The notes beneath the pieces are model-generated. The model was not told the DNA's origin and made no database searches. It worked only from the letters and a program-made list of their open reading frames with translations. Positions 6,265-15,959 of a DNA stretch of 64,000 bases are shown piece after piece. The DNA is from Mucilaginibacter pallidiroseus. GTDB lineage: Bacteria; Bacteroidota; Bacteroidia; Sphingobacteriales; Sphingobacteriaceae. The stretch is taken from the NCBI RefSeq assembly GCF_007846085.1, contig NZ_VOEJ01000003.1:434001-498000 (forward strand). Reading direction: 5' to 3'. How positions within the stretch are numbered: position 1 is the first letter of the stretch; every line of letters begins with the position of its first letter. Made by a program: the position numbers and the translations under genes.

Positions 6265-6340
<76 letters not shown>

Positions 6341-6480: not shown

Positions 6481-6553
<73 letters not shown>

Positions 6554-11604: not shown

Positions 11605-11940
11605 ATGAAGAGATTAAGAAAAAATTGGTTAAAAAGCATTTTAGGCACGGCATTACTTCTTGTGATGGCCCTGAAAGTGTGCGCCGGTTTTATTAGTCAA
11701 TTCAGTTGCAAAAATGATTCTTACTCAATCGAAAAGAGTGCTGAAGAGGGTAAAGATATTAAAGAAGAATCTTTTGACAAGGTTAGTCAAAAACTGCTTA
11801 CCTGTAGTTTTCATGATATCACTTTCGATCATTTTTCGTGGATTAGCCACTTGCCCGTAGGTACCGCTTATTATAAGCTGAGGATATCAGCACATCCCCC
11901 CAAGACGGTACCTACACCGCCTCCCGATTTTACAGCATAA
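11605..11940 (+). CDS. Small exported protein leading the exporter operon
   Basis: 111 residues with a basic N-terminus and one hydrophobic segment (about 11-30), then a polar region with three Cys and a proline-rich end PKTVPTPPPDFTA. I do not recognise a domain. Small exported proteins ending in a PPP-type tail are found ahead of efflux operons in related bacteria, but that is recollection. The strong promoter just upstream and the exporter genes 180 bases downstream suggest co-transcription, so it might be an accessory factor, a sensor or an exported substrate. Confidence 0.6.
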   Translation: MKRLRKNWLKSILGTALLLVMALKVCAGFISQFSCKNDSYSIEKSAEEGKDIKEESFDKVSQKLLTCSFHDITFDHFSWISHLPVGTAYYKLRISAHPPKTVPTPPPDFTA

Positions 11941-12119
11941 CTTCAAACTGCTTTTATGCAAGCATTACAGCCTGGCTGTTTTGTGCTGTGTTTGATTGTG
12001 CTATTACCATGACGGCCCAATTCAAAATAAATACACCTGCAGTTTGCCCCCATGTTATGATGTATTTAAACCGGTTGCCCTGCTTCCGGAAATTTTGAAA
12101 AAAGAACATTTAATATCCC
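11941..12119 (+). other. 179-bp gap with only tiny frames
   Basis: Between the small exported protein and the exporter membrane domain. It contains an 18-codon frame from an ATG at about 11955 with a hydrophobic product and an overlapping 29-codon frame; neither has family support. No terminator is visible, so read-through into the exporter genes is likely. Confidence 0.4.
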
Positions 12120-13127
12120 ATGAAAAAAAATCATGCTGCCGGTGCCCTTACCCCCTGGCAACGACTTTGGCGAATACTCCATTACGAACGCGCCACAATT
12201 AATTATATTTACATATATGCTATACTTATAGGCCTTATTGGTTTAACCCTCCCGCTGGGTACTACAGCGGTGTTCAACCTGTTGTCGAACGGTGCCATGT
12301 ATAGCTCTACTTATATCCTCATAGCCGTTATATTAATAGGCATTATTATAGGTGGCGTGCTGCTTATCAGCCAACTCACGTTAGTTGAGTTTATTGAGCA
12401 AAGAATTTTTGCCAAGGCTGCTGTTGAGTTTGCTTATCGGTTGCCGCGTATTAAAAAAGAAGAACTTGAGGGTGAAAAACCTGCCGAGCTGGTTAATCGC
12501 TTTTTTGATACCCTTACCATACAAAAAGGCCTTACAAAGCTTTTAGTTGATATTGTAGCCGCCGTTGTGCTTATATTTTTCAGTGCTATACTTTTATCAT
12601 TTTACCACCCAATTTTTATGGGCTTCGGGCTGTTTGTATTGTTGGTTATTATTTTTGTAATGGCATTATATTACAAAGAAGGTGTGCGTACAAGCATCGA
12701 TGAATCGGGCTATAAGTATGAAGTGGTAGCCTATCTTGAGGATGTAGCCAACGATTTGGATAGTTACCGCCAGGACATAGGCAAGTGTAACGAGGTGCTT
12801 AGCCGCACCGATAAAATTACGGCCAACTACCTGCAGGCGCGTAACAGCCACTTCAGGATACTAAAAAGGTTTTTTGCAAGTGCAGTTGCCCTGCGTACCG
12901 CATTGATGGGTGCTTTGCTGCTATTGGGTTCGTACTTTGTTGTTGAACGCCAGATGACGTTTGGACAATTTGTGGCAGCCGAGGTAATTGTTGTACAGAT
13001 CAGCTATGCTATTGAGAAGCTGATGACTAATTTGAACACTGTTTTTGACATGGTAACCGGTGCAGAGAAACTTGCCGTTGTAACCGATCTTGAATTAGAG
13101 GAAGGAGATACAGACCATGGCAAATAA
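12120..13127 (+). CDS. ABC exporter transmembrane domain without ATPase domain
   Basis: 335 residues with six predicted membrane helices (about 28-48, 66-88, 140-163, 165-185, 255-275, 280-300) in the arrangement of a type-I ABC exporter such as HlyB/LapB. The usual EEL/PAELVNRFFDT coupling region and the AEKLAVVTDLELEEG linker are present. The chain ends exactly where the nucleotide-binding domain should begin: no Walker A, signature or Walker B motif occurs, nor a C39 peptidase domain. The stop overlaps the next start by 11 bp, so this is not a sequencing frameshift into a longer frame in this operon. An ATPase might be supplied in trans. Confidence 0.8.
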   Translation: MKKNHAAGALTPWQRLWRILHYERATINYIYIYAILIGLIGLTLPLGTTAVFNLLSNGAMYSSTYILIAVILIGIIIGGVLLISQLTLVEFIEQRIFAKAAVEFAYRLPRIKKEELEGEKPAELVNRFFDTLTIQKGLTKLLVDIVAAVVLIFFSAILLSFYHPIFMGFGLFVLLVIIFVMALYYKEGVRTSIDESGYKYEVVAYLEDVANDLDSYRQDIGKCNEVLSRTDKITANYLQARNSHFRILKRFFASAVALRTALMGALLLLGSYFVVERQMTFGQFVAAEVIVVQISYAIEKLMTNLNTVFDMVTGAEKLAVVTDLELEEGDTDHGK

Positions 13128-14484
13128 ACACAATGCCGAAGCACCGTTCGAAAACTGGGAGCAGTTTTCAACCTTATCGAACGAGCGCTTAATTGAAGCT
13201 AAAGGTCAAAAAATGCTTGGCCGCATTGCGCTGGTCTTTTTGGGCCTTTTTATACTTATTTTGTTTTTACCATGGCGGCAAACCATACCCGGCCGTGGTA
13301 CGGTAACGGCTTTGCGCCCCGAAGACAGGCCTCAAACGGTACAAAACCAAATTGGCGGGCGTATTGAGCGCTGGTCTGTTCGTGAAGGGCAGGAAGTAAA
13401 AAAAGGTGATACCATACTGGTTATATCTGAAACCAGCCAATCTTATTTTGACCCCGAACTGCCGCAGCGTTTAAAAGAACAACTGGACGCTAAACGAGGT
13501 AGTGAGGCAGCTGCCGTGCAAAAGATCGAGGCTACTAATGCGCAAATGTTAGCTATGACAAATGGCTTGCGCCTGCAATTGAGAGCCGCAGAAAATAAGG
13601 TAAAGCAATCGCGAAATTACGTACAAATAGATAGTGCCGATTTGGTAGCGATTGAGAAGTTTTACGAAACATCAAAATCAAGGCTTGCCCGTTACGAGGC
13701 CGGTTACCGTAATGGCTTATTCTCATTAACAGATATTGAAACACGCAGGTTAAAATTGCAGGAAGATAGAGCAAAGGTTGTTAGCCAGGAAAACAAGCTC
13801 AACAACTCTAAGCAAAACCTGCTCAATGCTATTATCGATCTGGATAACATTCGCGCCAAGTACCAGGAGGCGCTGGCAAAAGCACAATCAGATCTGGGGT
13901 CGGCTGTATCCAGCAGGGCAAGTGTGCGGGGTGAAATTGCCAAGTTGCGTAACGACATATCAAACATTAATGTAAGGCGCGGCTTATATGTGGTAAGAGC
14001 GCCTCAGGATGGTTTTGTTGTTAAAACGCTGAAAGCAGGTATTGGCGAAAATATTAAAGAAGGCGAGTCTGTGGCAACGCTTCAGCCGAAATCGCCTTTG
14101 GTAGCCGTGGAGCTTTACGTAAGTGCTATGGATGTTCCGCTGATTTTAGATACCAGCGATGTGCGCCTGCAGTTTGAAGGTTGGCCATCTGTACAGTTCT
14201 CGGGCTGGCCGTCGGTTGCAGTGGGTACTTTTGGTGGTAAAATTTCTGCTATTGACAGGGTGAGCAGCTCTGGTGGCAAGTATCGTCTCCTGGTGAAAGA
14301 ACACCGCCAGTTTGCAGAAAAGGATGAGCCATGGCCAAAGCAACTCCGTCAGGGTTCGGGCGTTTACGGACGCATTATACTGCGTTCAGTGCCAATCTGG
14401 TATGAAATATGGCGCCAGTTAAACGGTTTCCCGCCAAGCCTGGATAAGGAGCCTACAACAGAGTCTAAAACGAACAAAGGTTAA
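13117..14484 (+). CDS. HlyD-family membrane fusion (adaptor) protein
   Basis: A 455-residue periplasmic adaptor for tripartite export. The single N-terminal membrane helix (MLGRIALVFLGLFILILFLPW) is followed by a lipoyl half-motif around GGRIERWSVREGQEVKKGD, a long coiled-coil hairpin from about 125 to 280, the second lipoyl half (VRAPQDGFVVKTLKAGIGENIKEGE) and a beta-barrel domain. A purine-rich AGGAAGGAGA lies before the start, and the start overlaps the upstream exporter gene, which indicates translational coupling. It would link the inner-membrane component to the TolC protein encoded next. Confidence 0.9.
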   Translation: MANKHNAEAPFENWEQFSTLSNERLIEAKGQKMLGRIALVFLGLFILILFLPWRQTIPGRGTVTALRPEDRPQTVQNQIGGRIERWSVREGQEVKKGDTILVISETSQSYFDPELPQRLKEQLDAKRGSEAAAVQKIEATNAQMLAMTNGLRLQLRAAENKVKQSRNYVQIDSADLVAIEKFYETSKSRLARYEAGYRNGLFSLTDIETRRLKLQEDRAKVVSQENKLNNSKQNLLNAIIDLDNIRAKYQEALAKAQSDLGSAVSSRASVRGEIAKLRNDISNINVRRGLYVVRAPQDGFVVKTLKAGIGENIKEGESVATLQPKSPLVAVELYVSAMDVPLILDTSDVRLQFEGWPSVQFSGWPSVAVGTFGGKISAIDRVSSSGGKYRLLVKEHRQFAEKDEPWPKQLRQGSGVYGRIILRSVPIWYEIWRQLNGFPPSLDKEPTTESKTNKG

Positions 14485-14498
14485 GGGAGGGCCATCAC

Positions 14499-15959
14499 AT
14501 GAAAATAAATTTCAGAAGATCACCTGCCCTTATCATGTTTTTCCTGGCTATGCTTTTTACTTCAGTGAACAGTATTGCACAAACTGCATCTAAGGCCCCC
14601 GATACTACCAAAGTATTTTCGCTTAACGATTTGCAGGAGTTGGTTTTTAGATACCACCCCATAGTTAAGCAAGCAGCTTTGTTAAGTGAGGCGGCGCGTG
14701 CCGATGTTTTACAATCCCTGGGTTATTTTGACCCTGCACTGAAAGCTGGTTTTGGCCGGAAGGTTTTTGGCGAAACGGAATATTATAACAATTGGACCAG
14801 CGAACTTAAAGTGCCCTTGTGGCTGGCCGGAGCCGATCTTAAGATAGGATACGACCGTAGTGTGGGTACATACACCAACCCTGAAACCCGAACACCGCTG
14901 CCCGGGCTTACCGCAGTGGGCCTTAGCATACCTTTGGGGCAGGGCCTTATCATCGACGCCAGGCGTAACACATTGCGCCAATCAAAAATTATGGTGCAGT
15001 ATGCCGAAGCCGAACGAATAAAACAAATAAACAGCACCTGGTATGTGATAGCTAAAGATTACTGGAACTGGTATTACGCATACAAGCAGTTTCAGTTAGT
15101 TAACGAAGGTGTTGATTTGGCGCAACGCCGTTTTGATGCGGTAAGCAAACAAACCCAAATTGGCGATAAGCCGCCTATAGATTCAGTAGAGGCTTATATT
15201 ACAGTGCAGGAGCGGATCATTCAAAAAGAAAAATCGGCTGTCGAACTTCAAAATGCCAGGCTTGTGTTATCAAACCATTTATGGAGCGAGCAGGGCAACC
15301 CTTTGGAGCTACCTGCAAATGCAGCACCGCAGCCAATTCCTGAAAGTATCACGAAGCCAAACCGGCTGGTGCTCGACTCATTGGTAAATCAAGCCAATAG
15401 CCAACACCCCGAGCTGGTTAAGCTGCGCACAAAAGGCAGCCAGTTAGCAGTCGAGAGGAGTTACCGGCAGGAAATGCTTAAGCCAAAGCTTAACGTTACT
15501 GGGAGCCTGATATCAACACGTACCAGCTTTAGCGGCTACGTACCCGATTATTACGACTTTAACCGTGGTAATTACAAGTTTGGAGTTGAGTTTGCCTTCC
15601 CGTTGTTTTTACGCGCCGAGCGTGGTAAGCTAAAGCAGGTAAAAATCAAACAAATGGAGCTTGATTACGACCTACAGCAATCGGGCAGGGAAATAAAGAA
15701 TAATATCTTAACTTCTTATAACGACTTATCGGCTTATGAAGCGCAGTTACGGGTACAAATGCAGAGCATTAATAACCAGCAAACCCTTGTAAAGGGTGAG
15801 GCCCAGAAATTTGAGCTTGGCGAAAGTACGTTGTTTCTGATCAATAGCCGCGAAACCAAGCTGATTGATATGAGGATAAAGCGCGAAAGCATGGTGGCAG
15901 GTTATCAGAAAACCCTGGCCGAGCTTTATTACAAAGCCGGTACAAGGCAGGATTTGTAA
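14499..15959 (+). CDS. TolC-family outer membrane efflux protein
   Basis: 486 residues with a signal peptide (ending near SIAQ) and the two-fold repeated helical domain of outer-membrane efflux channels (about 45-255 and 290-480). Long amphipathic helices such as SAVELQNARLVLSNHL and the final KTLAELYYKAGT are typical of TolC. It follows the HlyD gene by 14 bases with a good AAGGGAGG ribosome site, completing a type-I-secretion-like operon. It ends before a strong terminator. Confidence 0.92.
   Translation: MKINFRRSPALIMFFLAMLFTSVNSIAQTASKAPDTTKVFSLNDLQELVFRYHPIVKQAALLSEAARADVLQSLGYFDPALKAGFGRKVFGETEYYNNWTSELKVPLWLAGADLKIGYDRSVGTYTNPETRTPLPGLTAVGLSIPLGQGLIIDARRNTLRQSKIMVQYAEAERIKQINSTWYVIAKDYWNWYYAYKQFQLVNEGVDLAQRRFDAVSKQTQIGDKPPIDSVEAYITVQERIIQKEKSAVELQNARLVLSNHLWSEQGNPLELPANAAPQPIPESITKPNRLVLDSLVNQANSQHPELVKLRTKGSQLAVERSYRQEMLKPKLNVTGSLISTRTSFSGYVPDYYDFNRGNYKFGVEFAFPLFLRAERGKLKQVKIKQMELDYDLQQSGREIKNNILTSYNDLSAYEAQLRVQMQSINNQQTLVKGEAQKFELGESTLFLINSRETKLIDMRIKRESMVAGYQKTLAELYYKAGTRQDL

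Follow-up and report, generated by a model that had tools for sequence, protein, structure and literature searches.

We analysed a 64,000-nucleotide stretch of the Mucilaginibacter pallidiroseus genome (contig NZ_VOEJ01000003.1, positions 434,001 to 498,000; hereafter, the window), in which three adjacent forward-strand genes encode the membrane domain of an ATP-binding cassette (ABC) exporter without a nucleotide-binding domain (NBD) (335 aa, 12120..13127), a HlyD-type periplasmic adaptor (455 aa, 13117..14484) and a TolC-family outer membrane channel (486 aa, 14499..15959). With a confidence just short of an even chance, we interpret these genes as encoding a tripartite envelope exporter that has been conserved and may export its substrate at the expense of an ion gradient, its inner-membrane part being derived from an ABC exporter in which ATP hydrolysis was abandoned. 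The comparisons show, as judged by motif conservation, a Bacteroidota-wide ABC-HlyD-TolC family in which the NBD lost its catalytic residues and one clade lost the entire domain from the linker on. They also show that strong selection on the membrane domain persisted and that the adaptor and channel genes remained adjacent to it.

The membrane-domain protein matches the Pfam family ABC_membrane (PF00664; 33.7 bits against a cut-off of 28, residues 30-295), as do all 35 members of an alignment of NBD-less proteins (A2) at E up to 0.1. The Pfam scan of the window protein gave no match to the ATPase family PF00005, and this family was likewise absent from those matched by the 35 aligned members at E up to 0.1. 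The initial annotation of this DNA had stated that the protein ends at the linker and has no ATPase domain, which agrees with these results and with the protein end itself ('...EKLAVVTDLELEEG...'), given that full-length relatives continue from the aligned linker (e.g., '...EKIGEVTDLDIE...') into the NBD. The AlphaFold2 model consists of an elbow helix and six long transmembrane helices (mean predicted local distance difference test score, pLDDT, 67; predicted template modelling score 0.55). Among the best 50 rows from Foldseek and the best 50 from VIA-align, all titles were those of exporter-kind ABC transporters, except for one uninformative VIA-align title. At this model confidence (pLDDT 67), the VIA-align rows had Z scores of 20.4-24.5, with 7znu_A at the top (Z = 24.5, 319 residues, root-mean-square deviation 3.0), and Z was 23.1 for HlyB (8dck_A) and 21.8 for PrtD (5l22_B). 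The NCBIfam profiles TIGR03796, TIGR01842 and TIGR03375 matched weakly, far under cut-off.

Among 400 genomes of the order (E up to 1e-60, with the best 5 candidates scored in most genomes), we identified the NBD-less gene at 100 places in 97 genomes, with frames of 333-380 aa and two copies in each of three genomes; the other 62 matching genomes carry a full-length relative (551-593 aa in the 50 rows listed). Among 201 genomes of the family, NBD-less homologues occur at 40 places in 39 genomes (333-368 aa, 61-100% identity), and the full-length relatives show 34-43% identity. The co-occurrence statistics on this set used 40 and 47 genomes, whereas a recount with the remote match in genome G038 left out gave 39 and 48; the Fisher values take no account of kinship and should not be read as probabilities. 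The initial annotation had allowed that a closely related strain might carry the full-length gene; no genome of the 201 or the 400 (E up to 1e-60 in the latter) holds both forms, as would be expected if both do one job. Across the phylum, 97 of 395 genomes contain a family member, and three more NBD-less members (G361, G562 and G443), each followed by HlyD and TolC genes, were found beyond the family of the window. The search of GTDB contigs returned 64 NBD-less loci, the named relatives being mostly Mucilaginibacter and Pedobacter, with further loci in Sphingobacterium, Olivibacter, Nubsella, Chitinophaga and Dyadobacter, in one unplaced Sphingobacteriaceae assembly and in one Flavobacteriaceae record. 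Three Pedobacter records among these (L052/L062, L048/L064 and L053/L065) each contain two oppositely oriented NBD-less operons with about 22-24 kb between them.

All of the resulting 65 loci (the window and the 64 GTDB loci) encode the membrane domain and the adaptor, and 64 encode the channel; this is the arrangement that the initial annotation had proposed seeking in relatives. The overlap that it had noted between the membrane-domain stop and the adaptor start spans 11 nt in the window, and mechanical first-start calls gave an overlap in 58 of the 63 measured loci (window included; 2 loci were not measurable), a 1-nt gap in 4 and a frameshift in 1 (L091). Because the adaptor starts at once, there is no room for an NBD after the membrane domain. 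In trees of the membrane domain alone, all NBD-less rows formed one clade with support of 100; both were quick trees with Shimodaira-Hasegawa-like approximate likelihood ratio support, and the second omits 28 near-duplicates as well as the five canonical rows, whose long branches were a concern in the first. The NBD-less form thus appears to be widespread and of a single origin. The ratio of nonsynonymous to synonymous substitution rates (dN/dS) of the membrane domain had a median of 0.028 and a maximum of 0.077 in 99 pairs with 85-99.5% protein identity and dS under 1.5 (some pairs are repeated, and a few genomes are present from two collections). The membrane domain is under strong purifying selection.

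A sequencing error or a pseudogene was ruled out by the occurrence of the same end in 100 places and by the low dN/dS. More generally, it is hardly conceivable that a frameshift or an assembly error conceals the NBD, an outcome that the initial annotation had considered: all 100 NBD-less places have frames of 333-380 aa, the end is identical in independent genomes, and the adaptor starts immediately. Nothing in the window suggests such an artefact, and what does so elsewhere are three loci with split genes, namely L090 and L091, in which the membrane-domain gene is in two frames, and L089, in which the adaptor is (all three were excluded from the length and dN/dS counts, L089 having been lost to the start rule despite an open frame of 329 codons). 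The earlier argument that the tidy layout speaks against random decay is supported by the conserved gene order, the strong purifying selection and the presence of the gene at 100 places in 97 of the 400 genomes.

We compared the NBD-less clade with its full-length sisters, for which 20 genomic stretches were inspected. The complete ABC-HlyD-TolC order was found in 15 of these, and the same order, cut by the contig end, in L104 and L120; L101 and L102 end before the adaptor. In the remaining one, L103 (2350-3165), from a many-contig genome, a sister-type membrane domain of 271 aa lacks an adjacent adaptor or channel gene, which could reflect a misassembly or a separate truncation. In the five canonical exporters of the host genome, Walker A, the 4th G of the signature, the Walker B Asp and the H-loop His are each conserved in 5 sequences and the catalytic Glu in 4. 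The basal set of relatives (n = 8) is nearly intact, with Walker A, the Walker B Asp and the catalytic Glu in 8, the signature G in 7 and the H-loop His in 6. The intermediate set (n = 6) retains Walker A in 5 sequences and the signature G, Walker B Asp, catalytic Glu and H-loop His in 0, and the set of about 550 aa (hereafter the 550-aa set; n = 44) retains Walker A in 43, the Walker B Asp in 3, the catalytic Glu in 5 and the signature G and H-loop His in 0. These counts exclude the duplicate L151 as well as L101-L104, which are cut by a contig end or truncated and were also kept out of the trees. Outward from the NBD-less clade, the trees place first L189, the nearest row, in which the Walker A Ser/Thr is gone as well, and then the remaining intermediate set.

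Comparison of sequence identities in the two domains (L199 left out) shows that, in a control of 30 orthologues of one canonical exporter, 96% of 435 pairs had an NBD more conserved than the transmembrane domain (TMD), with medians of 0.77 vs. 0.68. Conversely, the NBD was more conserved in 0% of pairs in the 550-aa set (43 sequences; 0.31 vs. 0.50), never in the intermediate set (5 rows; 0.55 vs. 0.70) and in 25% of pairs in the basal set (0.39 vs. 0.48). In the sisters, the rate of evolution is higher for the NBD than for the membrane domain, opposite to the canonical control, and, because the sister NBD is catalytically degenerate, the ancestor probably no longer relied on ATP hydrolysis. 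The distribution of motifs suggests that the signature, Walker B and the H-loop were lost before Walker A, that the whole domain went last and that coupling helix 2 became increasingly variable alongside. Several basal and intermediate relatives (L184-L189 and L191-L196; 692-832 aa) carry an N-terminal extension before the membrane domain that is absent from the NBD-less and 550-aa forms. Seven of these extensions were inspected, and the NCBIfam matches listed for such relatives start after the extension.

The persistence of Walker A in the 550-aa set could also mean that the sister NBDs work by ATP binding alone or as one half of a heterodimer, in which case the NBD-less form might pair with a full-length ABC protein, of which the host genome encodes five of the exporter kind. 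Degenerate sites are common in heterodimeric exporters, as parts of one source describe (PMC7756269), and in this respect TmrAB, TM287/288 and TAP resemble the sister family. In those exporters, however, one site is canonical, whereas the sisters lose the signature, Walker B and the H-loop in one chain and have no partner gene in the operon. Given the site make-up outlined in the same source (PMC7756269), neither composite site of such a heterodimer would be complete, because a single chain carries both the degenerate signature and the degenerate Walker B, and the loci inspected showed no second ABC-exporter gene next to the core genes. We therefore consider such a pairing improbable.

An ATPase acting in trans would be expected to contact the coupling helices, which we located by alignment to canonical exporters and, for helix 2, also in the model, scoring their variability by entropy. 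In the NBD-less clade, the loop of coupling helix 1 (residues 111-122; 12450..12485, forward strand) and the region of coupling helix 2 (residues 206-217; 12735..12770, forward strand) lie at variability percentiles 83 and 78, compared to 11 and 18 in canonical exporters, where they rank with the best conserved regions of the membrane domain. For coupling helix 2, the percentile rises from 18 in canonical exporters to 22 in the basal, 40 in the intermediate, 56 in the 550-aa and 78 in the NBD-less set, and the corresponding values for coupling helix 1 are 11, 88, 100, 91 and 83; the boundaries of both helices depend on a weak alignment between families, and the basal and intermediate values come from few sequences (8 and 6).

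The initial annotation had left two options, an ATPase in trans or a repurposed membrane domain, and had proposed a search for a free-standing matching NBD. In the host genome (the 4.25 Mb that contain the window), a profile of the sister NBD gave five matches below 1e-39, all in full-length proteins (610-637 aa), and the best stand-alone frame was far weaker (5e-28). Among 14 other genomes with the NBD-less form, 9 of 143 profile matches (E up to 1e-26) were in frames under 400 aa, spread over 7 genomes, so that no stand-alone exporter-type NBD is common to all 14. Thus, this profile detected no dedicated stand-alone exporter-type NBD in the host genome or in the 14 others. A scan of 17 of the stand-alone NBDs of the host genome saw one, LptB, pass its curated cut-off; others resemble the LolD, FtsE, DarD, ProV or MacB types under cut-off, and three had no match at 1e-40. 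An NBD gene split off next door was also ruled out: over 986 open reading frames (ORFs) within up to 8 kb on each side in the 65 loci (positions 1-24000 of the window), the NBD profile matched 6 ORFs in 6 loci, all in one ABC-F-like cluster of 543-585 aa, at a distance of about 3-4 kb from the membrane-domain gene.

We regard it as unlikely that the membrane domain draws its energy from an NBD whose gene lies elsewhere and which is perhaps shared with another transporter. This possibility gains from the cytoplasmic extensions of the helices, which are retained together with a strongly conserved ELVNRFFD-QKG stretch, from several stand-alone NBD genes of the host genome that have no obvious permease adjacent by a simple hydropathy count, and from one YddA-type case with TMD and NBD in separate operons, mentioned in parts of PMC13316013. 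Against it stand the restriction of strong profile matches to full-length proteins, the presence of short-frame matches in only 7 of the 14 other genomes, the variable coupling helices and the catalytic degeneration of the sister family's own NBD. Because no dedicated stand-alone NBD was found and the coupling helices are unusually variable, work independent of ATP is favoured over an ATPase in trans; of the two options initially left, the repurposed membrane domain has been strengthened by the degenerate sister NBDs and the ATPase in trans weakened.

Conserved charges in the helices suggest how such work might be driven. Glu288 in transmembrane helix 6 (TM6; codon 12981..12983, forward strand) is Glu in 92 of 92 family rows and Ile or Leu in the five canonical exporters of the host genome. 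Lys/Arg259 is kept in 90 of the 92 rows, and position 90 is Glu but Asp in 5 of 8 basal rows, both within predicted helices. Glu/Asp299 and Lys300 are conserved charges in a predicted helix, less strict in the basal set, and Glu93 is the sole conserved acid new to the NBD-less clade. The six-helix subunits would still dimerise and alternate access, and the membrane domain would pass a small substrate to HlyD-TolC, the drive being a proton or other ion gradient acting via Glu90, Lys/Arg259, Glu288 and Glu299/Lys300.

Ion-driven export, as in SbmA-like transporters, would by this analogy be the leading mechanism. SbmA is described, in the parts of PMC13316013 (2026) that concern it, as a proton-driven protein with the ABC-exporter membrane fold and no NBD; according to the same parts, the SbmA/BacA-like transporters (SLiPTs) lost the NBD and the coupling helices and use a glutamate ladder, part of which is already present in the NBD-bearing YddA. 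As far as that account goes (PMC13316013), the window family shares with them an NBD-less membrane fold derived from full-length ABC proteins and conserved acids in the helices, and differs in that the coupling-helix loops are kept but variable. Furthermore, the window protein matches PF00664, has no TM0 helices in its model and sits in a HlyD-TolC operon, whereas SbmA is an importer without HlyD-TolC partners. The lineage may be independent of SbmA. The Pfam family of SbmA/BacA, which we take to be PF05992, was matched neither by the window protein (E up to 1) nor by the 35 aligned members (E up to 0.1). Alignment to Escherichia coli SbmA with hhalign gave a probability of 0.4%, but a true ABC exporter likewise scored just 0.7%, so that this test is powerless; SbmA was not among the best 50 rows of VIA-align or Foldseek, which is uninformative on the relationship.

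Within the membrane domain, conservation is highest in the membrane half of TM6 and the cytoplasmic part of transmembrane helix 3 (TM3), which bears on whether the protein pumps at all. It might instead be a platform or gate that docks HlyD-TolC, or a sensor or regulator, with the substrate arriving by diffusion or being picked up in the periplasm. Sisters without ATPase motifs and variable coupling helices would fit such a role, and an adaptor with TolC could in principle handle periplasmic substrates. The best conserved parts, however, look more like a mobile core that handles substrate than like a pad for docking, and the protein has a dN/dS near 0.03; we find a non-pumping role doubtful.

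Several observations weigh against ion-driven export by a descendant that gave up ATP hydrolysis. The basal group, whose NBD is near-intact, already has the charged residues 90, 259 and 288, so these did not arise with NBD loss, and it also has a variable coupling helix 1 (percentile 88). In most basal pairs, too, the NBD is less conserved than the TMD although its catalytic residues look nearly intact. The high conservation of the cytoplasmic end of TM3 could be explained by a cytosolic partner, and the host genome has orphan NBD genes.

The initial annotation had described HlyD and TolC as intact, which holds at the level of Pfam, where the adaptor matches HlyD_3 (44.1 bits against a cut-off of 22.2) and the channel OEP (126.9 bits against 22), and does not extend to the curated type I families of NCBIfam, for which both are below cut-off (73.8 against 208.65 bits for TIGR01843 and 49.6 against 225.15 bits for TIGR01844, respectively). 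A phmmer search of PDB sequences with the adaptor returned nothing at E up to 0.01. With type I systems (HlyB-HlyD-TolC, PrtD, LssB and the NHLM families), the operon shares the exporter-HlyD-TolC order and the exporter membrane fold; it differs by the missing ATPase domain, by an adaptor and a channel under the NCBIfam cut-offs and by NBD-bearing relatives that are mostly degenerate. Because it keeps the HlyD-TolC tripartite plan and fails the defining ATPase feature, we class it apart from standard type I systems. EmrAB-TolC, in which the adaptor and TolC are supplied by a secondary transporter, would be an analogue. Type I secretion is described, in the relevant part of PMC11026475, as energised by its ABC transporter. 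In the titles and abstracts of the open-licence papers listed, we found no tripartite system with an NBD-less or NBD-degenerate ABC exporter beside HlyD/TolC, and the first 300,000 of the 747,799 characters of a review of tripartite systems (PMC8277102) mention TmrAB, with one degenerate half, and contain neither the name SbmA nor common phrases for a missing NBD.

Upstream of the membrane-domain gene lies a small forward-strand ORF (111 aa, 11605..11940) with one N-terminal helix, a charged middle and a C-terminal V-P-T-P-P-P-D tail. The span originally annotated starts at this ORF, which was left undescribed there and is a conserved neighbour: an upstream PP-tail ORF that encodes about 110-140 aa and has a single N-terminal helix is found in 49 of the 65 loci by rule (window included), with a 50th, in L070, as an open frame outside the rule. 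The window copy has no Pfam match, and AlphaFold2 predicts a helix at residues 2-39, the remainder being of low confidence; the alignment of the family (A4) comprises 31 sequences. It is probably the fourth member of the locus and, at a guess, a small membrane accessory. Elsewhere in the window, two tRNA genes with equal scores lie about 140 bases apart (6265-6337 and 6481-6553).

Relatives were also seen on plasmids (L251, L252 and L250): degenerate full-length ones in Riemerella and Persicobacter, and one in Croceicoccus (Alphaproteobacteria), which has no Walker A and is annotated only as 'transmembrane domain-containing'. Of the 20 plasmid matches listed, 9 are annotated as 'ABC transporter ATP-binding protein', a label that may mislead where the motifs are degenerate.

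Taken further, the family may represent a second and independent case in which an ABC exporter was converted into an ion-driven secondary transporter, here inside a HlyD-TolC exporter and with near-intact, ATPase-dead and lost-NBD stages surviving, that is, an ATP-independent type-I-like machine; we hold this broader proposal with less confidence than the reading of the operon itself, as rather less than an even chance. If true, it would show how a primary pump becomes something else while its envelope partners stay, and the surviving grades would make the order of motif loss directly testable.

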